Below are positions 1 through 54,299 of a DNA stretch of 64,000 nucleotides, piece after piece. The stretch comes from Diphasiastrum complanatum (taxonomy: Eukaryota; Streptophyta; Lycopodiopsida; Lycopodiales; Lycopodiaceae), in the NCBI GenBank assembly GCA_029204225.1, contig CM055099.1, forward strand, positions 60,853,753 to 60,917,752. The letters run 5' to 3'. Made by a program: the position numbers and the translations under genes. Position 1 is the first letter of the stretch. Every line of letters begins with the position of its first letter. A model generated the notes under the pieces. The model was not told the DNA's origin. It made no database searches and saw only the letters and a program-made list of their open reading frames with translations.

Positions 1-3000
1 TCACTCCAAGTGATGATCTGAACTTCATAAAAGGTGTCTTTTGAAGTGGTTTAGTAAGTAGATCAGCTACACATTCATTGCTTGGAACATGCTCCAAAGC
101 AATCTCCTTCGCTTGCACCATTTCTCTCACAAAGTGATGGCATATCTCAATGTGCTTAGATCTTGCATGGAAGATTGGGTTAGATGCAAGGTGTTGGGCT
201 GATATATTGTCATTGTAGATGATTGGTGCCTCCTCTGAATCCATGATCTTTAGTTCCACCAATAATCTCTTGATCCAAAGTACCTCCTTTGTAGTGGTTG
301 TCAAAGCTTTGTACTCGGCCTCGGTTGAAGATAGAGATATAGTTTCTTGCTTTTTTGAAAGCCATGAAACCACACCTTCTCCTATGAAAGTTGAATAGGC
401 ACTTGTTGATTTCCTATCCCTCTTGTCCCCTGCAAAATCTGAATCACTAAATGCATGAAGGTTAATCACATCTCCTCTATATAGAATCCCAAAATCTAAT
501 GTACTCGAGATGTATCTTAGAATCCTCTTAGCCTTTTTCCAATGGATATTCAATGGCTTTTGCATGGATTGGCTCAACCTACATACACTAAAGCTAAGAT
601 CTGGTCTAGTTATAGTGATCCACATTAAGGAACCTATAAGTTGCCTAAACAAAGTGATGTCCATGAAGGATCTTTCATCATCTTCATTTGGCACTTTTAC
701 ATCTTGCTCCATTGGTGTGTCAACACTTTTGCATACTTCCATCTTAAACTTCTTCAAAGGACTTTGAGCATAGTTTACTTGACTTATAAAGATAAAATCA
801 GACCCTCTAAGTACTTCTATGCCTAAGATGAAGTGAAGACACCCTAGATCTACCATCTTGAATTCTAAGGATAGATCTATCTTGATTTTTTCAATACCAT
901 CAACACTATTTCCACTAATGATGATGTCATCTACATAAATGAGTAAAAGTACAATACCAACATCATCAAACTTAATGTAAAGAGTGGGATCATATTCACT
1001 TTGAACAAAAGAAAGTGAAATAAGATAGCAATGTAGTCTTGAATTCCAAGATCTCGAGGCTTGCTTCAAGCCATAGATGCTACTTTGGAGATGGCATACT
1101 TTGTTCTCCATTCCATGCTTGATGAACCCTTGTGGCTGCTCCATATAGATATCCTCTTCCAAAAAACCATTCAAGAAAGCATTAGAGACATCCATTTGAC
1201 ATAGAATCCATCCAAAATGTGATGCAAGTGCAATGATTAGCCTTATTGTGACCATCTTGGCCACGGGTGCAAACGTTTCCTCATAGTCTATCCCTTTCTC
1301 TTGAGCATAACCTTTTGCAACTAATCTTGCTTTATGTTTGTTAACACTCCCATTTGCATTCAACTTAAGCTTGAAGACCCACTTGCATCCTATTACATTC
1401 CTTTGAGGTCTCTCAACAAGCAACCAAGTTTCATTCTCAATCAAGGCATCATACTCATCCAGCATAGCTTTATACCATTCTTTGGAGTTCAATGCATCTT
1501 CAACATTAGATGGTTCTTCAAAACTAGATAAAGCATAAGAAGTGGATGAGATACCCTCAATTTGTTGTCCTTTGCCTTGATATGTGAGCCTTGATGGCTC
1601 CACTTTTGCCCTTGAAGATCTCCTTGGTGTGATAGGTGGGTTTGGTGCTTGCTCCTCCATGAGCTCCTCCTCAAAACCAAGATCTTGCTCCTCGGCCATC
1701 TTCTTCTTGATTGTTGGAGCACTTGAGCCTTCTTCAAGCATATGCATATGATGTTCATCAAAGATGACATCCCTTGAAACAACAAATTTGTTCAAGGATG
1801 GGAGATAGACTTTGTAGCCCTTGCTTGAGCTTGCATATCCAAGCATGATCCCTCTTGTGGAAGATGGATCCTCCTTGGTTCTTGTTTCCAATGGCACATG
1901 TACATAACATATACACCCAAAAACTTTCAAGTAATTAAGACTGGGTTTCTTTCCATACAACATCTCATAAGGAGTTTTGCCTTCAATTGCTTTGCAAGGC
2001 ACCCTATTCATCAAGTAGTTTGCACATACAAGAGACTCACCCTAAAAGGATTTGGGCAAACAAGCATCTAATCTTAAAGCCTTAGAACATTCACATAATG
2101 TTCTATTCCTTCTTTCAGCAACTCCATTTTGTTGAGGAGTGTAAGGACAAGAAGTCTCTTTCTTGATCCCTTCCTCCTCACAAAAGGCCTTGAACTCATT
2201 GGAGATGAATTCTCCACCATTGTCACTTCTAAGAATCTTGATGCTATGATTATGATGCTTTTCCACAAACAACTTGAACTTTACAAAAGTATCAAATACT
2301 TGAGACTTGAAGGAAAGTAAGAACACCCAACAATATCTTGAGTAGTCATCAATGAAGGTTAAAAACATGGATGAACCTCCATTAGATTTGGTGCTAACAA
2401 TGTGCACATCCGAGTGTATGAGTTCAAGAGGATGAGATGACTTTGTGATGGAGTTAGGAAACACCTTCTTATGTGCCTTGGATAAGGCACAAGCTTCACA
2501 AACCTTGTCTTCCTTCCCAATAGACCTTGGTAGGCCTAAAGCATACTCCTCCTTGATCATAGCCTCCATGGAACCCGAGTTGACATGTCCAAGTCTTTTG
2601 TGCCATAAAGTAAAGGTAGATATCTTGCTCTTCTCGGCCAACATGACAACATTAGTATCCACAAATGCATCCAACTTATAAAGTTTGCCAAGTCTAGTGC
2701 CCTTAGCCACTATCTTATCCTCCTTCTTGATGAAACATTCATTTGAAGCAAAGTCAACATTGAAACCATTGTCTACCATTTGGCCAACACTTAGTAGATT
2801 CTTTGTTATTGTAGGAATGTACAAAACACCTTCTATGTTGATCTTTTTGGAAGATCCTAAGCAAAGGGGAATGCTACCCACTCCTTCAATCTTACAAGCT
2901 TCATCATTTGCTGTATAGATAGACTTTATAGGTCCATCATAAGATAAGAGAGAAGAGAAAAACTCCCTTTTACTAGTCATGTGTGAACTAGCACCCGAGT

Positions 3001-3963
3001 CAATCCACCAAGGATCTTCTCCTTTGAAGCTTGTTGAAGAAAATATGGACATCATGAGAGAGTCCTCATGTGAACTCTCCTCCTCCTCCTCTTTGCTCAT
3101 GTTGGCTTGGCTTTGATCTTGCTTCCTCTTGAAGCATTCTGAGGCATAATGCCCCATCTTGCTACAATAGTAGCACTTCACCTTTGATTTGTCCTTCTTG
3201 ACTTTGGTGGTTGATGGAGATGCCTTTGAGGTTGATGGAGATGCCTTTGAGGGTCCTTCTTGATCCTCAAGCTTTGTAGACTTCTTGAATGTTGATCCTT
3301 TGCCTTTGGACTTGCCTTTGCCTTTGGTGAAGAGAGCTTGGTCATCTCCACCTTGGATGGAAAGCCTATCCATCCTCTCTTGCATTTGGCTCCTTCTTGA
3401 TTCCTCAGCCATGAGTGTGCCTTGGAGTTCTTCAAGTATGGGTAGCTTACCCATAATTGCATATCCCTGAACCAAATTGTCAAATTCAAAGCTTAGTCCA
3501 TTCAATATGAGTTGAACAAGCTCTTCATCCTTGATAGGATCACCTATAAAGGCTAGCTCTTTGTTCAATTCCTTTACTCTTAGGACAAAAGTATGTGCAC
3601 TCTCTCCTTTCTTTTGATAGCTTCTATAGATTTGATTCTTCAAAGCTAACATTCTAGTTTGGTTCTTGGATTCATAGACCTTTTGCAAAGTCTCCCAAGC
3701 ATCTTGAGCTGAAGTGCAATCTCCTACCTCTCTTAAGAGTTCATTTGCAACATTGATTTTTATGCAATGTAGTGCAACATTGCACCTCTTTTGATGTATT
3801 TGGCTTTTTCTTGAGGATGAATAGGTTCACCCTCCTTACCATTTACAATTTCCATCAAATCTTGCATGATCATGATAGATTCCATTCTAACTTTCCATAT
3901 GGAATAGTTAGTTTTGTTGAGCCTTTCATTAGTATCCAAAAGATATGCATTTATAGATGCCAT
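1..3963 (-). pseudogene. Copia gag-pol polyprotein, one frameshift and one stop
   Basis: The Gag N-terminus starts at the ATG at 3963. The reading frame shifts by one base near 3775 and continues in the 548-residue frame 3688-2042. In that frame residues 172-185 are the zinc knuckle CYYCSKMGHYASEC and residues 230-237 the aspartic protease site DSGASSHM. These are followed by the GAG-pre-integrase segment (LWHKRLGH), integrase blocks FIDDYSRYCW, LRSDNGGEF and TPQQNGVAERRNRTL. The frame ends near 2042 where the usual SFWGE motif reads SF-stop-GE, consistent with a single Trp-to-stop change. Downstream the frame stays open to base 1. It includes INT C-terminus, the RT start (GCKWVFKLK), the catalytic YVDD at 926-937, and RNase H (STEAEYKAL, about 330-300). 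The polyprotein would supply capsid, protease, integrase and RT; it is probably inactive but only lightly damaged. Confidence 0.88.
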
Positions 3964-4762
3964 CTAGTCTCCTAATCAAGGATTTGACACAAATGAAGGT
4001 TACTTCTATTGATTTGATTGAAGGTCTACCTTATCCCACTTCTTAGGGACCTGAAAAGATCAATAATAGACTTCCTATAAAGATCTAAGAATGATCTATA
4101 ACAAAATCAAATCATAGAATACTAGAAACAATGCACTTGCTTGATTGAAGTAGACAATACTAGTAGAATTGCCCCTCTTTCTATAAAGAACATTAAAGCT
4201 TCCAAATGATCTGATCAAGAGTGAATTTTAGCAACCTAATATACTTCCAAAATCACTTATAAAAGATCTAAATGGAACTTAATGAGGATGCAACACAATC
4301 TACTATCCAATCACAAGCAAAAAATGATCAAAATTGATGAAAAATTGATCTAATTTGGTGCATAAGTCAAGCAATGGTTGGACTGAACCTAAATCACTTT
4401 AGGAGGTGTCTACTACACCTTAGAACAGCCTTTAAGAGTCCCCAAAAATCTGATCTTCCCTCTCCTTAAATGCTAGAAAGCCTCCTCTATGAAATCACCT
4501 CCAAAACTCGCTTAAAAATCAATGCTTGGAGCAAGCAAAACTTGCTATCTTGGTAATGTGAATTGAATTCAACTTTGCCTCTGGTTTTAGACACCTAAAC
4601 ACCTGCAAATGAAGTCACACAACACCAATCTCCAATGTATTTGACTCACTTTGAGTTCTAGAATCAATACTAGATGCTAAGATCCAATCTACACAAGATT
4701 TAGATCAAAAATTGTGATCAAATTGAATGAAAACCAAGGATTTAGCTCATTTCAGCCTTTAG

Positions 4763-4774
4763 GCTCTGATACCA
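4763..4774 (-). promoter_or_regulatory. Primer-binding site of the 1-5456 Copia element
   Basis: Plus strand GCTCTGATACCA; on the minus strand TGGTATCAGAGC, complementary to the 3' end of plant initiator-Met tRNA. It directly abuts the LTR, as in functional Copia elements. Confidence 0.85.
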
Positions 4775-5456
4775 TGTAAAAATTACAGCAAATAAGGATC
4801 CTAAAACACTTGAAATGATGAGGGAAACAATAGATTATGATTTCATAAGATTAGCACAAGTTGAACCATCAAAATCCATCAAAAATCTATGCTTGAACCT
4901 CACTAAATGGCCCAAATCCTTGAAGAAGGCTTCACACGTGTGAAAGTACGGCCTCCCACATTCTGAGTACTGTACACCATACCTACATTCAATCCTATAA
5001 TCATTAGTAATCACAAGTACTCAAACAATTATGAACATAGAGAGCAATTGCATCATTATGAGAGAAAAAACATGAAATTGCTTGATTGATTTTGGTGAGA
5101 TATCATCACCTATATATACATGATCCATCACGGTTTTGGGCAGGTATGAGTAGCCCTAAACCTATCCCTAATGCTAATTTTGGTGGATCTTTCATCCCTA
5201 CCAAGTTAGGGTTGGAATCTTGGAGATCCCTCAACAATGCAAAAATTACCAAAAATAGCTCCTATTTTTTCTCCCTTGTATCTAAGCATAATTTGGACTC
5301 ATTCCAAAGGTTCTAATACTTAGGTCTACTTGAGAACATCCTTATGAATGGAATCCTATGCTATTTGGCACGTGTGACAAGCCACGTCATGACCATCTAA
5401 CTATTTACAAGTCATATGACCAAAACTAGTCAAGCTAGAACTGTGAATTTTTAACA
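4775..5456 (-). repeat. 5' LTR of the 1-5456 Copia element
   Basis: Read on the plus strand it begins TGTAAAAATT next to the primer-binding site and ends with the near-inverse AATTTTTAACA, about 682 bp. It holds a TATA-like stretch (plus strand CTATATATACATG near 5109) positioned for minus-strand transcription, and a perfect 14-bp palindrome TTCACACGTGTGAA at 4931-4944. The outer end is set by the terminal inverted similarity, not by a second LTR, so it is good to a few bases. Confidence 0.7.
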
Positions 5457-8400
5457 ACAAGGGAGCACCTTCATGCTCACACTCTCATATGGACTATTGA
5501 AGGGTTGTTAGTTTAGTGCCATAAGAGGTGGCATGTTTTAGCTCCACCATTATGAAGGGCATGAAAGCATCTACGGGCAAAAATTTGTCAAAAGCAATCA
5601 TTTGGAACAGCACTTTGAAAAATACACATGGTGTAAGCCGAATTGGATAAGTGTTACCTCCAACAATGGAGACCTAGGTTAAACATGCATAGAATAGGGA
5701 ACTAGGCCCATGGCAGGCTCTAGAAATGGGAAGAGGTTATTCCTCAATGATAGATATGCATGGAATAGGGAACTAGAGGAGCCCATCGCATCTCCGAACA
5801 TGGATGATGGGAACAACTTATTCCTCAACTGGAGTAGGATGCAGGCACGGCCCCACTCTCATCCAATGATTTATGAGTTGTGAAATTTTTCATCATCCAT
5901 CATTATTATAAATGGATGATTTTGCATGGTTGGATGAAGGTGGGTCCTTGCCTACACCCTTAGTCCATATGAGAAAGATGCTCCTTTCAAAAAATGGCTT
6001 AGCCTATATAATGTGGGTGTAGAGTGTAAAAATACACATGAATGATTTTTAAGAGTTATAATAGTGGTCTACAACTTCCTCATTGATAACAAGGTTAGCC
6101 TACATGAAGAACATCCAAACCACACCTATCATTAAATGTGTGGCTTGGGGGATGGTCTCCATGCATGGGAACCTTGTTATGAATATCCTCGTCCATCGTC
6201 CATCGTCTACAGTATAAGAATGTTGTAGAATAAACTCAATTCACTTAAGTTTTAGATTAAATAGGTAAGAATGCATAGACTATTTGGTTTCTCCAATAAC
6301 TCTATTTAAGAGATTCATGGCAAGGCAAAACCCATTTGAACCAAGTTGGTTATGACGCATCACCTTTACATAATGACCTGCCAAAATGTTTCATCTTAGC
6401 TATAAAATTTGCAATCAAGTAAATGTTGCTTTTTACAATGTATGTTAGCATAGATATAATTAGTGCAATTAACTTGGATTTGAGCTATTTTGTAGTCGAA
6501 GAGAGCATAAATTATAATTCTTATCAAAGGAGGCTAAAAGAGACTTTGCTCTCTTTGAGTGCTTTGTTTCAAAGGTAGATTTGTTTTTAGGGACATTTTC
6601 ACCAAGTTCAACAATTTTTCATTTATGGCATGACCCCACCCATATACTAAGGTGCGTTTTACCTATCAGAAAATAAAATTCATTCCCAATACACAAGTAT
6701 ATTCTGCTAAAGAAACTGATTTCATGGAGAACTCACTTCTAGGCAAAAAAATGTGCATTATCCTTAAACATATTCGATCTACATCCTTGTTGTTTGGATT
6801 CTAGATACGTTTCATACATATTTTTTCCAATTATTATGAAATTTGTGTGATAAAAATGTGTAGGTGAAAGCATCATGTTACGTTGAATCCTTGAGGGAGT
6901 TAGCTTCATCGTGCTTTATCTCAATAGAAGATTTTTATATGACTTAAGTGCTAATCCATAAATGAATGGTCATTAAACTTAGTGAAAAAGGTTGTGATAA
7001 TGAATTTTCCAATTTACGAAAAAACTAATGTTCAATGTTTCTCCTTGCAAAGCATTGACTAAACAGTCGGATGAGGAGATATTATGAGCTAGATTGGGCA
7101 AGCTTTTCAAACACTAAATGAAAGATAAAATAGGTTTCATCAAGTGCTATTAAAAATTGCCATCATTTTTACTTGAGAAGACACCTTCCAATTGACCTAT
7201 ACAACTATCCATAAATTTGTGGTTGCTTCCCTTGGAGAAATCATGAAACCCATTGTCTAGTGCATAAAGGAGTCACTTTGCACTCTTTGGTTTACTATGT
7301 TATACTAGAAAGAGTTTGTATATAGTACACTTATTAAATTTTGTTGGTGTGGTCAATGATATGGTGGTTCTTGAGAAGAACTACAAATCACAATATTCCA
7401 TGACTTTTTCTCATATCAACCCAATTGTGGGCCCTAAATCATTCATTTCTATACATGGCCTTTCTATTTTGTTTAATCTACGTGATCTTATCATAATAAG
7501 CATGTTGATTGGTGACGATTATCACATGTGTAGAGTCAAGAATAGGGTATTCTAAACTTTTGAGAGTTAATATGTTTAATTAAGTATCCTTGCAATATGT
7601 GATTGTTAGAGTAACACAAAGAAAAAAACAGTATGTGAACCATTTTATGAAATTGACTAGAATGTTGCATACATTTGATTAGTTAATATTTATTATCCAT
7701 CCATAAAATAATGCTTGATCTATTGTAACAAAGTCCAAGAAGTGGAGCTTTATATCTTGAACTACACATGATTTGTCGTATATTCAAGTTTTTCAAATTC
7801 ATGTAAGATTGATTTATGTAGAAAATACTATGTGGTATAAAACTTTGAGACTAATTTTGTCCAAAGAGGACAAGGGCTTGCTTTAGAGTCTCTTCTAAAC
7901 TTTTTCATTCTAAAACTTTTTTTCTAGTTCTAAACTACTTTCTTATAAGTGCAAACTTTTTCAAAAGGGTGTCATTCCCTAATGGAGAGAAATTTCAACG
8001 TGGAATGTGTAATTTTCTCTTATTTGTAATGTCAACAAAAGATTTAGTCTTAAGATAACCCATGTCTTGGGAATTTGTGCCTGTGGGATTCCTCATTTTG
8101 GGATGTTTTTTCTCCTTATTTTACTTCTATTTGATTTGAGAACCTTAGCTCTTTCACAAAACGAGATGCTAATTTAACCTAGATAACGCCAAGTTGCTCT
8201 AAGATGTGGAGATGAATACCTTGATGAGTATAGGAGTTGTGATATTCTTTGATACCTACTACACTTCAGAAGAGTAGCAACAACAAGCTGTTCAAGACAA
8301 AAAAATATCGACATTAAGTCTTGCCTCAATTCTGAAGTTGTCTATGTCCATGGCCTCTGCATCAACATCCTCTACAATTGGTGTGTTCCTCTCGAATAGA

Positions 8401-47048: not shown

Positions 47049-47774
47049 AATATTTTGATCTGATTAATATCAATAGTGAGTACAATGGCTTAAAGTAATA
47101 AATTCAGCTTGCTGAGCATGATAACGTTGGCTACAACAAAACTCTGATAATGTTAAAAGCAACACTTACATAACTTTAATTCAGCTAGTACATATTTACA
47201 CCAGTCTTCAAAAATTATCTTACAAACATTGAATGTCATTTACACCAGTCTTTGTATATGTACAAAGTGGGTAACCGCCCTTGGGATATTTAGTGGCCAA
47301 TTGTTTTAGGGTTGATGATAAGTTGGCAACGTCGGTCTGCCACCATTAAAAACCCAAAAAACCCAAAGATGCCCTTGAACAGAGAAAGCATGTAAATCTC
47401 GAAGGCGCGAAAATCCCGAAGGTGCCTCTAAAGCGAAGGCGTAGAAATGCGAAAACCCCGAAGGTGCTTTCAAAATGGATTCTGATCACAGTTTCGCATT
47501 TTTTCTCGAAGGTGCGAAAAATGCGAGGAAGGCGAAAAAGCCGAAGGTGCCTTAAAACTGTTAAGGCACGAAAATCGCGATTTTGCGAGAAATGCGAGAA
47601 AGGCGAATGTGTCTTAAAATGGTTAGGGCACAAAAATTCCGAAGATGCAAAAAAGGCGAAGAAGGCGAAGGTGCATTAAAATGAAATGTTTGAAAGAAAA
47701 CGAAGTATTTGAAAAATGCGAAGGTCCAAAATATGTTGTCGGCCTTCGGTTGTTTTCAGGATGCTCATTACTTG
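47049..47774 (-). repeat. 3' LTR (outer end truncated) with GCGAAGGTGCC array
   Basis: Shares TCTGATTAATATCAA through TCAGGATGCTCATTACTTG with the right LTR. From about 47390 to 47700 it holds an irregular tandem array of GAAGGTGCC, TTAAAA and GCGAAAA words, longer than in the right LTR. The array produces spurious Arg/Lys- or Phe/Arg-rich frames. Confidence 0.85.
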
Positions 47775-48765
47775 TTTCTCTTTTGAAAGAGCCTTTGTGA
47801 AGTAATCTGCTGCCATGTAGTTTGTCCTGCAGAAAACCAATGCTACCTCTTGGCTATGCACTTTCTCTCTAAGGTAATAATACATGATTTCAATATATTT
47901 GCTTCGAGAGTGAAATCTCGGATTGAGAGAAAGCGCTATTATGCTTTGATTGTCACAATAGATTGTTGTAGAAAGTGTTTGTGCAAGGTTGATGTCTACA
48001 AGCAGTTGTCTTAGCTAGATCGCCTCTTTGGTTGCATTTGTGGTAGCTATGTATTTGGATTATGTTGATGATAATGCAACCGAGGTTTGCTTCCGGCTGT
48101 TTCATGAGATTGGGCCTCGGTTGTATAAAAATATAGATCCAGAAGTTGATTTTCTAGTATCGACATCTCCTGCCCAATCCGCATATGTGTAGGCTTCAAG
48201 GATGTTGGCAGTTTGGCTGTCTCCATTGCAGATGCTGAGAGTTTTCGTTGCTTGGATGTACTTCATGACCTTTGTTAGCGCTTTCCAGTGAATTAAGCCG
48301 GATTTAATAGGAACTGGCTAAGTGTATTGATCAAATATGCAAGGTCTGGTCGCGTGCAGATCACTGTGTACATCAGTGAGCCGATGATGGACTGAAACGG
48401 GTAGTGCTTCATTTCCTCCTTTTCTGCCTCAATTTGTTGAGACTATTCATTCTGATAATTTTAGTCCAGGGTCGAGTGGAAAGTGACTTGGTTTGTAACT
48501 GGCCATACCATATTTTTCCAACACGTTGTTGAAATATCGTTGCTGACTAATAAAAATCAGTCTGTTGGGTCGATCTCGTTGGATTTGGATTCCGAGACAA
48601 TAGTGGGCTGTACCCATGTCAGTCGTCTTGTATTCCTCGGCCAGCATGCATTTTGTATCCTTCATTAGATTCACATTGTTACTGAATAAGAGTGTATCAT
48701 CTACATAGAGAGTAATGATGATGAAGTAATCTGATACAGACTGGAAGTAGACATGATGCTGACCA
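47775..48765 (-). pseudogene. Copia RT C-terminus and RNase H
   Basis: Frame 48818-48447 contains FIIITLYVDDTLLFSNN, then MGTAHYCLGIQIQRD and FNNVLEKYGM. Further left, in broken frames, lie the RNase H pieces, ending MAADYFTKALSKEKQVMSIL (47820-47760), which reads into the LTR. Real homology starts at about 48765, the inversion point. Confidence 0.83.
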
Positions 48766-49265
48766 GTGGAAAGCAACAATGGACACCGAATTTGATTCTC
48801 TGATAGAGAATCAAACATGGACAGTCACGGAGCTACCAAAGGACCGAAATCCGATTTCATGCAAATGGATATTCAAGACAAAGTATGATACTGAAAGAAA
48901 GCTCAATCACTACAAAGCTAGGCTAGTTGCCAAAGACTACAACCAGATTCCAAATCTGGACTATTCAGAAACCTTCAACCCAGTTGTCAAACATGCTTCA
49001 ATCCGTCTACTTCTCTCCTTTGCAGCCACAACAGATCTTGAAGTCCACCAGATGGATGTCTAGACCGCTTTCCTCAACAAAACCATCAAAGAGAAAATCT
49101 ATATGACACAACCAGAGGGATAAGAACTCAACGTCAAGCAACAACACCTTGTCTGCAAAATCCACAAGGCGCTCTACGAGCTGAAACATTCACCAAGAGT
49201 CTGGTTCCACAAAATCAACGTATTTCTGATCGAGAATTATTTTATTCCAAACTCGGCAGACTCGT
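48765..49265 (+). pseudogene. Copia RT N-terminal half, inverted
   Basis: The plus strand encodes WKATMDTEFDSLIENQTW, SCKWIFKTKYD, KARLVAKDYNQ, DYSETFNPVVKHASIRLLLS and EVHQMDV, then a stop, AFLNKTIKEKIYMTQPEG, another stop and HKALYELKHSPRVWF, ending near IPNSADSSL. These blocks directly precede the YVDD half found on the other strand to the left, so the two halves make up one RT. Confidence 0.85.
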
Positions 49266-49405
49266 CGTTGGTAGAAAGAACGATTGTCGACAATGATTGT
49301 CGAAATATTGTTGGCTGCGTGTTTGCTAGAAAGACGTCTTGGTAGAAACAAGACTGATAGTCCGTAGTAGAAATGTAGATTACTAAAATGCCCGCTCTGA
49401 TGCCA

Positions 49406-50173
49406 TGTCGTAAAACGTGGGGATGACCAGCAGCGGAAGCTTGAAGCTTTGAGTGTAGGCGTGTAGTAGCGGAAACACAACAATTAGCAGCAAAAATATT
49501 CAAGATGAATCATTCATACAAAATTGTGCAAATGAACAATACAATAGTGAGACAAAAAATTGCACTCTGATTAATATCAACAGTGAGTACAATGGCTTGA
49601 AGTAATAACTTCAGCTTGTTGAGCGTGATAATGCTAGCTACAAAAAAACTCTGATAATGTTAAAAATAACACTTACATATCCAACTGGTATATATTTACA
49701 AGTGTCTTCAAAAAATATCTTACAAGCATTGAATGTTATTTACGCCAGTCTTTGTATATGTATAAAGTGGGTGATCGCCCTTGGGATATTTAGCGGCTAG
49801 CTGTTTTTAGGGTTGATGATAAGTTGGCGACGTCGGTCTGCCGCTGTCAAAAACCCGAAAAATTTGAAGGTGCCGTTGAACAGAAAAAACAAGTAAATCC
49901 TAAAGGTGCAAAAATCCCGAAGGTGCCTTTAAAGCGAAGGCGTAGAAAATGAGATGCCTTAAAACGGTTAAGGCACGAAAATCGCAAAGTTGCGAGAAAT
50001 GCAAGAAAGGCGAAGGTGCCTTAAAACGGTTAAGGCATGAAAATCCCGAAGGTGCGAAAAAGGTGAAGGTGGCTTAAAACGAAATGTTTGAAGGAAAAAC
50101 GAAGTATTTGAAAAATGCGAAGGTCCAAAATATGTTGTCGGCCTTCGGCTGTTTTCAGGATGCTCATTACTTG
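49406..50173 (-). repeat. 5' LTR of the 47049-50173 element
   Basis: Begins TGTCGTAAAACGTGG beside the primer-binding site and ends CATTACTTG. The GAAGGTGCC array lies at about 49850-50090. Confidence 0.83.
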
Positions 50174-51685
50174 AACGATTTGTTAAGACTGGGCATAATA
50201 AATCTAATAGTATGGAGGGAGAGTTTCTACTCCAAACCCTAACCTAATGTGAGAGTCACATTTGTAATCCTAGCCTTACATTGTCACTGATGGTCAAGAT
50301 CCCACATTGGTAAATATAGCCAATCGAATGAACACTCGAAAGAGTGAACTTGAGGCTCAAGTTTTAGCCTACTATAGGTTGCGAGTTCCTATTTGCACAA
50401 GTAAACCTTCCCAAGTTGCCTTACAATATTGGCCTATTATCCCATTTGCATAATGTCAACAATATTACATTGGCATTATCAACCTAAGTAAATTAGGGAC
50501 GTAACAATATCCTATTCACCCCCTACATTGGCCACATGGCCACTAGCGAATGATATGGCTACTAGAGAATGATAGGGCTACCAATCATCACATTAACTTG
50601 AAATTGTATTGGCTTCATCCAAATTTAAAGAGACACCCACTTTTGATGTCCATCACTAGCAATCCAATGACTACTACTAGATTGAACTCCCACCTCAAGC
50701 CATCTAGAGTTATCTTGCATTCCACTTCACTAAGTACCAAGTCCGACCCATTGATAAGTCAAGGTTATATGTAGATTCATCCTTGTATCAATTAGGAACG
50801 AAACATAGGAGAGGATCAAGAGGTTCACATACAGCGTGGTTCATCAACAAAGTCCAAGTGCTGAAAACCCAAGGAAGCTCAAATTAGCTCGGGTTTTTGT
50901 TTTATTGTAGAGATGATGAATTCAATGCAATGTGGGGGCATTGTTTTGGTAAACCCCTTATTCGAAGGATTTGTCCAACTTAACGAACCTTTTAAAGGAA
51001 AACTCCAGTTTGCAAGGAGTTTAATGATAAACATCTTGAACATTTGAACCACCGAATCCTTGAAGCTAGGCCCTTTCAAGCTTTCCTCCTGCCTTAAGAT
51101 GAGAAGGTGTAGACCTAAAGAAGAGGCTATAAAAATGCATGTCCTACACAGAGTGAGGGCAGGGTGGGAGCCTGAAGGCAGGGCCTGAACTACATGGAAG
51201 GCCCGAGGGGTAGTGGCCTTCCCCTGCGTAATGCTGGGTGGGAGGGTCTCTAGCCAGGGAGTTTTTGGTGCACAGATTGGGAGAGAACGTCACGATGGGA
51301 GAGGAGTGTTGCCTCTCTTCTCTCGTTCAGTCCTATTGCATCACGATCCCTTGTTTCTAGCCACAATAGTGAGCAGATTGAGAGATGGATTTGCTTGTGT
51401 TTTTGTTGTCACAGTAGAGGTGGAGGCATCATTGTGGATGGATATAGAGGCACATCTTCTTTCTTTGTTTCTATAAAGCCCTTGCAACCTGTATCTTTGA
51501 GTTCAATTTAGTCTGTTGAACGAATGATAGGGATCTAAAAAACAAATCATTGCTTCTAGCTGTCTTGGTGGATTGCATCTCCCGAGGATTAGTAAGCCTC
51601 ACAAGCTTAACCTCATCGGTCCGTTCTATGCTCTACATATTGTCTCAAAGTGCAGGGTCCATCCTTGGGTCTTGGCTCGTCGCAG
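50174..51685. other. No gene recognised
   Basis: Open frames are short on both strands. The C-terminal catalytic domain that a tyrosine recombinase would need (Arg...His-x-x-Arg...Tyr) was looked for on the minus strand here and not found. Confidence 0.5.
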
Positions 51686-52878
51686 CTATCGTTTTACCCA
51701 AAGTCTACCAAGCATACTCTTTTGGCAAGATATCTGACATGCTAACTTGGCCAGCTTCTTGAACCTACAGTCTCGGTGAATGTGAAACTCATGGACTGGC
51801 TCCCCTGTCTCAACTGCTTGTGCCTCTATACTAGCCCGAATCAAGCGTCCCATGGCCCTATACATACTTGCCAGACTACAAGTGCAATAGACAATTAGAA
51901 AGCATAGGACATAGCCATCAAACAACAATATGTTGAAATATGCACTAGAAATAGTTGAAATGCAAATGTAATTTTCTTGTAGTATACATTAGCAAATCAT
52001 GGAAGGAAATGTAAAGGATTAAATGGACATAATACGTCTCAGCTGGATAAAGAGAGCCATCCTTCTTTTGCACTTGAGCAAAAAACATAGACAACATATC
52101 CACCAAATATTTTAGATTTGTCTTATATAACTCCTCAATAGTAAGGTCCATTGGAAGGGAATTCAAAATCCTCCACTCATCAAAACGACGACGAGCCCAC
52201 TTGTTAACATCATTTGAATATCTTATGCCCCCTTCACTCACGAGCTGTAACTCTTGCTCATCAGCTTCACGAAAACCTTTTGAAAGCTTCTCTAGATTGA
52301 CACTAGCTTCAAGATCTACATAAGTGTCTCGATCTGCGGTGACATTGGTATTTGAATCTACATATTTTTTAGGACTGTCGGTAGGTGGTGCTGCAAAAGC
52401 TTCACTCGTAGAGGTGGAATGAACTTGTACAGGCTCATTATGAATAGAGGCAGAAACAGGTGGCAAGACAAGGGTTACATCTAAGAAATCAGAAACTGCA
52501 TTGTCAAGTTGATCAAAAGAAGGTGGAATCACACAATTGTCAGAGATAGTAGAAACAACTCACAGTGGGAACTAGAGAATCTTTTATATGAGTGGCCTTA
52601 TCTTAAACATTGGAAGGACTAACAATATTTAATATATCTCCTAAAACACCTACACTACCTACAGATCCAGAAACTGCAGAATCAACCATAGCTATAGGAA
52701 AATAGGAGCAAATATTCTCCAGTGAACAATCTTGACAAGCTTGCACATCCTCTTTTAGTTGTACATGCTCCTTTAGAGCCCTGCCTCGCTTCACCGATTT
52801 CTGAACATGACCTACCTGCACATCCACGAAGTAAGTAACCATAGATAATAAAGGACCTGTTGTAAAATAACAATTCAC
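51686..52878 (-). CDS. Crypton/ZMYM-like (DUF3504-type) recombinase-derived gene fragment
   Basis: Minus strand. Exon of frame 52532-52036 ends at a GT donor after PAE-T (intron 51876-52035, 160 bp, GT-AG). The next exon from 51875 restores the frame (PAETLASMYRAMGRLIRA). The joined domain has DVNKWARRRFDEWRI, LVDMLSMFFAQVQKKDGSLY, MYRAMGRLIRAS, then ETGEPVHEFHIHRDCRFKKL and KSMLG. These fit the N-terminal core-binding-like domain of Crypton tyrosine recombinases and of the animal proteins derived from them (ZMYM2-4, QRICH1, KIAA1958), which have W-A-x(n)-F-x-E-W, KKDG-x-Y-P and a ...DxRFKK block. Upstream, 52878-52603 is an open frame (91 residues) with no family I know, possibly another exon. 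The first exon and start are not established. No catalytic domain is seen to the left, so the gene is either truncated or a domesticated N-terminal-only protein. Confidence 0.62.
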
Positions 52879-53141
52879 AATTTAAGAAAGAAATATCATT
52901 GCTAAAGATTGAATTCTAGGATTATTGCTGCATATGATATTGTTTAGTGAAATATAGAAAAGATTTGAGCTAACTTTTTTTCCAATCATTTTGGCTTTCA
53001 CAAAATTGAGAAACAGAATTCTCAAAATAAGGATGAATGTTGTCACATTTCCAGTCCCAGCGACCTACCTGCACATCCACAATATGGCCGCAAATGGTCT
53101 AAAGATCATGCGGAACATGCAGTCATTGTAGCTCAGGTCAA

Positions 53142-53483
53142 TCTTGAACCAAAAAAAAGCCTTGTCCCAGAAGAATTTTTTTTTTCAAAAACGGATTGAA
53201 AATTCTTGTGTAGTCGTAGAAGAGTCTCAATGCCTGGAACAAAGTGCATTCACAAGGTTGGATTGAAACGGGTAAGCAAACGATCTATTAAAAGTGGAAT
53301 TGAACAAGCTAGCTATTCTCCTTTAGTTTTGTCTTCAACTAAAGCAGTATTGGATGCTAGACGTTGCATAATCAATGGCGTGGTGTCAGGTTCTTGAACC
53401 AAAAAGAAGCCTTGTCCTAGAAGAATTTTTTTTTAGAAACGGATTGAAAATTCTTGTGTAGACGTAGAAGAGTTTCAATGCAC
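53142..53483. repeat. Tandem duplication, unit about 250 bp
   Basis: TTCTTGAACCAAAAA and the next ~85 bases (AAGCCTTGTCC, GAAGAATTTTTTTT, ACGGATTGAAAATTCTTGTG, CGTAGAAGAGT) recur at about 53143 and 53391. In addition, CCTACCTGCACATCCAC occurs at both 52811 and 53066, so exon-bearing sequence of the Crypton-like gene seems to be part of a larger, older duplication. Confidence 0.8.
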
Positions 53484-54019
53484 TCATTCAAGTGATACAT
53501 TAGCATTTGAAGTAGAAGCTTATGAGAATAATTATCGGAAAAGGAGGACAGGTAATCCAAGAGCACGAATAACGATACAACACTTTTTCATACTATGTTT
53601 ACAACACAACATAATATATTTCAAGAAGAAATTGCTATCAGGGAACAAAAACTGACAAATTACACAAAAGTGGCGCAGCGAAGTAGCGGACGTTCATGAT
53701 TCAGACAACGTGTGCTCCGGCTCTGAGCCTTGCACACCACAATCACGCCTGGCCCTTGCTAACATGCCTGAAAAGATAAAAAGAGATGTCTGAAGAGCTC
53801 CTGCCACACACAGATGGTGGATTCACTGGCCACACCTGTGCCAAAAGACATCGCCTATAGAAGAGCAAAACCTGACTATGCCGGCTGCAAAACTGAAACG
53901 GTCCTCAACGCTTACCTACATAAGATAAAATGAAATCCTAGCTATGGTGGCGACAAAACAGAAATGAGAAAGCCCTAAATGCCCAAAACCTACCTAACGA
54001 AGAAAATCGAAGCCCGGTT

Positions 54020-54076
54020 CGGATTTTCAAAATTTTTAGGCTTGGCCCCTCCGGGCCTCGAATTCTGAAAATCCTT
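54020..54076. repeat. Short inverted repeat in the TSK promoter region
   Basis: GGATTTTCAAAATT near 54022 and its imperfect complement AATTCTGAAAATCC near 54062, with a GC-rich loop. It could form a hairpin. Role unknown. Confidence 0.55.
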
Positions 54077-54299
54077 ACCAGGCAGAATGTCCTTTGCCCG
54101 GCCCCTTCCATAATACAAAGAAAACCCGAGCACACAGCATTACTAATTGGGAAATGTGAAATGTGAAGCCAAAATGGTTCAAAATTCAAATTCACATGCT
54201 TGTTTATCACACAAATTTGAGTGGGGTGAAAATTTTAAAATTAAGAAGGCCAAGGGCTGTTCCTTCTCCCGCCCCCACCCCCTTTCAAAACTCCCCGCG

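Follow-up and report, generated by a model that had tools for sequence, protein, structure and literature searches.

A decayed, 3'-truncated copy of a probable Crypton-type transposon in Diphasiastrum complanatum

Results

In the 64-kb stretch of Diphasiastrum complanatum DNA analysed here (the window), the recombinase-like locus at 51686-52878 is very likely the decayed remnant of a Crypton-type transposon that has been truncated on its 3' side, and the repeat family to which it belongs is probably an unreported member of this known class. An earlier note on this DNA had offered two readings, a decaying plant Crypton or an N-terminal domain taken over by the host, and the former is favoured by the multicopy nature of the sequence, by the catalytic half present in its relatives, and by weak but ordered matches to the Pfam families QRICH1 and DUF3504. 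Considering that no single score is strong, the kinship with Cryptons rests on architecture and catalytic spacing. Taken alone, the window copy is ordinary repeat decay: the absence of its catalytic half is most likely an accident rather than the mark of a new kind of gene, because decayed relatives elsewhere in the genome still show the cutting half.

The recombinase-like frame of the window

Translation of the window shows that positions 52559-52036 and 51875-51686 of the minus strand, when joined, give a single open frame that carries the motifs WARRRFDEW, KKDGSLYPAET, MYRAMGRLIRA, and RDCRFKKL, and that the 160 bp between the two exons have GT and AG at their 5' and 3' ends, respectively. 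Both the motifs and the clean intron, which the earlier note had pointed out, are real. The whole extent given there, 51686-52878 (with the strand unstated), is not one frame: the 35 bp at 51686-51720 are unrelated DNA, and 52560-52878 lies in another frame (Table 1). There is no ATG ahead of the domain in the joined frame, the first methionine being located inside it. Relatives without the intron cross the junction with an equal number of residues (ETIVGLLRGIGR, compared with ET and LASMYRAMGR on the two sides of the junction in the window). The exon-1 domain is 47.7% identical to that of L013 over 86 aa (E 1.6e-21), and the matching part of two other relatives (L010 and L011) overlaps their sub-threshold Pfam match to QRICH1. 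Structure prediction of this domain from the single sequence was all helical, with a mean pLDDT of 53.4 and a pTM of 0.29, values too poor for use.

Table 1. Parts of the element copy and adjoining DNA in the window
Feature	Position	Strand	Basis
Probable 5' part of the element	52857..54117	-	88% identity to L020 up to 53082, then collinear patches
Upstream coding remnant, with in-frame stop at 52605-52603 and frame break before 52560	52603..52881	-	Comparison with relatives
Linker, open and weakly conserved, 5' of the domain	52319..52559	-	Differs by 24% (L019) and 22% (L003)
Exon 1, conserved domain, putative N-terminal portion (core-binding, QRICH1-like) of a Crypton-type tyrosine recombinase	52036..52318	-	Similarity to L013
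Intron, 160 bp, GT...AG, common to the window's subfamily	51876..52035	-	Alignment of copies
Start of exon 2, ending ahead of catalytic box I	51721..51875	-	Alignment with relatives
Abutting DNA (35 bp) outside the element, giving the frame 10 residues and a stop	51686..51720	-	Group B alignments end at 51721-51723

Upstream of 53082, the probable 5' part consists of four collinear patches of 55-188 bp with 69-95% identity, and L020 is the only relative that reaches as far as 54117. A distance of 256 bp separates the end of the last recognisable patch from the first ATG in a neighbouring TPR frame. This neighbour, which the earlier note had called TSK, is indeed a TPR protein; the name itself comes from that note only. 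Duplication of the TPR-gene locus as the origin of the upstream sequence common to the window and L020 was ruled out, as the TPR exon matches the genome once.

A multicopy family in the genome

Searches of the own genome (1.74 Gb, 5176 contigs) returned at least 105 matches for exon 1, at least 115 for a full N-terminal half (L013, 395 aa), and at least 137 for the catalytic C-terminal exon of L012, all of these counts being lower bounds in which fragments of one copy are counted apart and small contigs may duplicate loci. The number for exon 1 is far beyond chance, with a best non-self E of 4.4e-45, and the locus is multicopy rather than a single gene; it lies on the minus strand. Most exon-1 matches have 29-48% amino-acid identity, and 17 loci including the window have at least 56%, seven of them inside 0.8 Mb of contig C2 (a grouping of our own, in which some loci on small contigs may be duplicates from the assembly). 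By identity, without a tree, the relatives were divided into group A (L009-L018), group B, which is that of the window (L002-L008 and L019-L023, with some overlap), and group C (L029 and L030). The two group C loci, on C8 and C5, form a third lineage that is more divergent. Each of the group B relatives compared (8/8) is damaged by a stop, by a shift of frame, or by loss of a part; in group A, L012 is without about 30 residues and L017 has a stop. No copy intact from end to end was detected among those read.

Truncation and decay of the window copy

The closest relative, L020, is 88% identical to the window from 53082 to 51721 and dissimilar beyond. All window alignments that reach the 3' end (L002, L003, L004, L006, L007, L008, and L019-L023) stop at 51721-51723, and that with L005 ends earlier, at 52057, whereas the long loci of group B (L019-L023, 5/5) stay alike past the break point of the window. 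Homology ends at 51721, and the last 10 residues of the frame and its stop are thus unrelated DNA. The sequence past the break point (50950-51720) has no match within the window and L001-L023 at E ≤ 1e-8. In agreement with the earlier remark that a catalytic part is missing, the copy ends before box I and, at E ≤ 1, the 64 kb of the window gave no catalytic or further recombinase match. Matches on the box I side were obtained in seven relatives and on the box II side in seven, some of them very short.

The region upstream of the domain is also broken. Codon 52605-52603 is a stop in the window but encodes glutamine in all five relatives compared (L020, L019, L003, L004, and L005). L020 runs in one frame from an HVQKS motif to the linker, until its own frame break before the domain, and L019, L003, and L004 have the middle of this frame and break soon after. 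Judging from its sequence, the window copy most likely makes no working protein, because all catalytic residues have been lost past 51721 and the longer upstream frame is broken.

Catalytic residues in relatives

Frames of group A continue from the domain seen in the window to box I, then to a lysine region (SKNHK), and, in the next frame, to KSAR...GH...Y. Box I reads VRGHTELYNL in L012, L017, and L018 and VRGYVEMYNL in L013; its arginine is replaced by cysteine in L009 and L010 and by histidine in L011 copy c. A stop-free match to the pattern [HK]..R-21-GH-8-Y, composed after inspection of the sequences, is present in 7 of 30 own-genome loci (L002, L009, L011, L012, L015, L017, and L019), which are not all independent (L002 overlaps L019, and L015 duplicates L012), and is absent from 3.8 Mb of base-shuffled loci. 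XerD of E. coli K-12 fits the pattern, with H244, R247, H270, and Y279 at their known positions. The residues of a tyrosine recombinase (R, K/H..R, H, Y) are all present in relatives such as L012 and L017, and several others have lost one of them. L011 copy b and L029 fail the box II pattern. L029 is without the box II arginine and keeps GH and Y; as a candidate for host use, it could thus rank above the window copy.

These residues suggest how the element may have worked. A tyrosine recombinase would be its only recombination enzyme, in which the N-terminal domain (core-binding, QRICH1-like) may grip the element ends; cutting of the DNA, its covalent linkage to the tyrosine, and rejoining may be the task of the C-terminal half (R, K, K..R, H, Y). 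If it behaved like other Cryptons, the element would excise in circular form and then insert again.

The group A unit and its ends

Alignments longer than 1 kb among L009-L012, L015, L017, and L018 are 88-96% identical, L012 and L015 being 99.6% identical over 8 kb (a large duplication), and L013 is about 66% like other group A members. A unit of about 2.5 kb is common to L017 and L011 copy c in a single alignment, and one of about 2.4 kb is found in pieces in L012. The flanks differ on both sides of these common units, as expected of a mobile Crypton, and the units of L012 and L017 contain recombinase frames only (coding strand, frames of at least 110 aa). Coding for a recombinase only and lying between differing flanks, this unit of about 2.4-2.5 kb indicates that group A is Crypton-type.

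Five copies (L009, L012, L017, and copies b and c of L011) have a 5' end that starts with TAATAGATAA and is strongly palindromic. Near it lies TTACGTTATTAGCAC, to which the 3' end GTGCTAATAACGTA is reverse-complementary over 14 letters in L012/L015 (one duplicated locus); this TIR-like sequence has one letter changed in L017 and is shorter in the L011 copies. No clear direct terminal repeat, of the short kind that Cryptons have where their ends are known, was seen at group A ends. Ends of this kind, as read from the sequence, would speak against plain Crypton membership, because published Cryptons have been described without TIRs (passages in Kojima and Jurka 2011, PMC3212892).

Several other features of group A loci were observed. 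The 5' ends comprise long and variable palindromes (L012 3595-3760 and L009 3765-3900, in element orientation, which is the reverse of the locus), and in L012 a sequence like the 3' end is also located ahead of the 5' end. Locus L011 (G000:C3:42682000-42691500) holds at 1268-7953 three tandem group A copies with AG-rich spacers, the first of which is cut by a Copia-like fragment.

The intron and selection

Among the aligned copies, the acceptor AG of the intron is kept in 7/7 and the donor GT in 4/7. Group A has no intron and reads through, and group C frames, as seen from the frames alone, end near the intron position. Other family copies have the same intron, and the spliced frame, which had been put forward as an argument against a recent transposon, thus does not argue for host takeover. 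More generally, a recombinase-like frame can have a clean GT-AG intron without being a host gene.

Divergence from the window is higher in the intron than in the exon-1 domain for L019 (25.0% and 12.7%, respectively), L021 (25.6% and 14.7%), L023 (28.1% and 15.9%), L022 (26.4% and 15.3%), and L003 (23.1% and 17.4%), and hardly different for L020 (8.2% and 6.7%). Such an excess in the intron would be as expected of a family that was constrained while active. Along the branch that leads to the window copy alone, 6 replacing and 4 silent changes are seen in the domain (325 and 92 sites, respectively), a ratio of about 0.4 based on 10 changes, which are too few to tell it from neutral.

Profile and database matches

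The earlier note had proposed a profile search of the joined frame as a check on its DUF3504 or Crypton assignment; the frame matched 0 Pfam families at E ≤ 10, and some longer relatives gave matches below cut-off. At the same threshold, DUF3504 was matched by 3 of 12 members of the N-terminal half, with a best E of 0.0052, and by 1 of 6 members of the C-terminal half (E 0.0032); QRICH1 was matched by 3 of the 12 N-terminal members, with a best E of 0.033. The best scores were 18.0 bits for DUF3504 (PF12012) and 14.7 bits for QRICH1 (PF25561), which are below the curated cut-offs of 29.7 and 30.8 bits, respectively. Most family members match neither, and the same Pfam lists also contain weak matches to HTH_51, DUF7358, DUF1636, CO_dh, TMEM249, Phage_T3_1_05, and DUF1690. 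In L011 (369 aa), QRICH1 (148-216) is followed by DUF3504 (263-355). QRICH1 before DUF3504 is the order in animal proteins.

A DUF3504 search gave 0 matches in the own genome and likewise 0 in 14 control genomes. PDB sequence searches with the joined frame and two family profiles returned weak matches only, none of them to a tyrosine recombinase, a PHROGs scan of four relatives found no integrase family, and no relatives of L013 were found in viral contigs.

Discussion

Relation to known systems

The family shares with Cryptons its multicopy nature, a tyrosine recombinase as the sole recombination enzyme, catalytic residues in relatives, and decayed copies. It differs from them in its land-plant host, in the group B intron inside the N-terminal domain, and in the TIR-like ends of group A. 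With regard to plants, passages of Kojima and Jurka (2011, PMC3212892) name Chlamydomonas reinhardtii alone, a part of a review of Arabidopsis transposons (PMC7385966) has Cryptons as undescribed there, a survey of Dracaena cambodiana, in the part available, labels 24 fragments totalling 1,719 bases as Crypton (PMC6294377), and an excerpt of a comparative survey places Crypton in every taxonomic group studied (PMC4438587). By title and abstract, with Repbase, preprints, and most subscription papers outside the search, the literature yielded no land-plant Crypton family described with its structure, and titles and abstracts on the Diphasiastrum genome or its transposable elements contained nothing on Cryptons in this species. 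A spliced, multicopy plant family with readable catalytic residues would amount to a described plant branch of Cryptons.

Among host genes, animal DUF3504/QRICH1 genes (ZMYM2-4, QRICH1, KIAA1958, and WOC) resemble the relatives studied here, which match both Pfam families below threshold and with QRICH1 first. According to passages of the same Crypton study, DUF3504 derives from Cryptons, which were the source of the conserved animal regulators ZMYM and QRICH1, and animal DUF3504 genes are conserved host genes that have lost the catalytic residues (PMC3212892); in contrast, these residues survive in relatives of the window copy, which is itself a broken repeat. The plant ALOG domain likewise binds DNA and goes back to the N-terminal portion of a tyrosine recombinase, but in the passages of its description that we cite it comes from DIRS1-type elements and serves as a land-plant host regulator (PMC3537659), whereas the present family shows no sign of host use. 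The family may be a place to seek plant counterparts of animal ZMYM and QRICH1.

Compared with E. coli XerD, the box II spacing is the same (R-to-H 23, H-to-Y 9) and box I is R..EL-like. The family differs in that the third residue ahead of the box II arginine is lysine (histidine in XerD), and its box I glutamate is one residue further from the arginine.

Alternative explanations

The second reading of the earlier note, in which the host has taken the N-terminal domain as a stand-alone DNA-binding protein in the manner of animal DUF3504 genes or plant ALOG, appears very improbable and found no specific support. Both domain exons are open in the window, and in L020, the closest copy, they are interrupted by a stop and a frame break; yet about ten changes would give only about 0.5 stops, so that an open frame needs no selection. 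Third positions of the exon-1 domain differ most in 6/6 relatives, which past constraint on an active family explains equally well. ALOG offers a published precedent for a DNA-binding part of a tyrosine recombinase retained alone (in the passages available of PMC3537659). Against host use, the open frame has no ATG ahead of the domain and the upstream frame is broken, the downstream truncation runs into unrelated DNA, and the 6 replacing and 4 silent changes on the window branch do not demonstrate constraint. A related proposal, that the short DNA-binding product of truncated copies blocks the ends of full-length relatives and thereby represses the family, is the least probable of the alternatives. 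Self-repression by truncated copies is known in principle for other transposons and the domain is open in the window copy, but no start codon precedes it, and, with no intact copy among those read, a repressor may no longer have a target. We also give very little credence to a broader scenario in which vascular plants would hold an old, undescribed, spliced Crypton branch with a QRICH1-like DNA-binding domain, represented by at least three divergent lineages here, and truncated copies like that of the window would still yield a protein limited to DNA binding, which would repress the family or would have entered the service of the host.

An origin from a DIRS-type retrotransposon is more doubtful still than host use. 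DIRS elements also carry a tyrosine recombinase of the same enzyme class, and the window contains a reverse transcriptase fragment (RVT_2 at 48725-49063 and 49124-49345). However, this RVT_2 fragment belongs to the Copia type and lies on the opposite strand, 2.4 kb off, and neither reverse transcriptase nor RNase H was found in the common group A unit of about 2.4-2.5 kb (coding-strand frames of at least 110 aa in L012 and L017). A Crypton-type transposon is the preferred reading of the locus.

Other repeats in the window

Three further repeats were noticed. At 54012-54127, in the stretch that separates the relic from the TPR gene, is a hairpin-like sequence that is also found, in direct and inverted orientation, in L020 and beside the broken frame of L016. 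Upstream of the relic, 53133-53233 and 53386-53481 form a direct repeat of about 100 bp with 90% identity. Finally, a direct repeat of about 0.6-0.7 kb (47059-47774 and 49566-50173, 78-83% identical), which is possibly LTR-like, flanks the Copia-type reverse transcriptase remnants.
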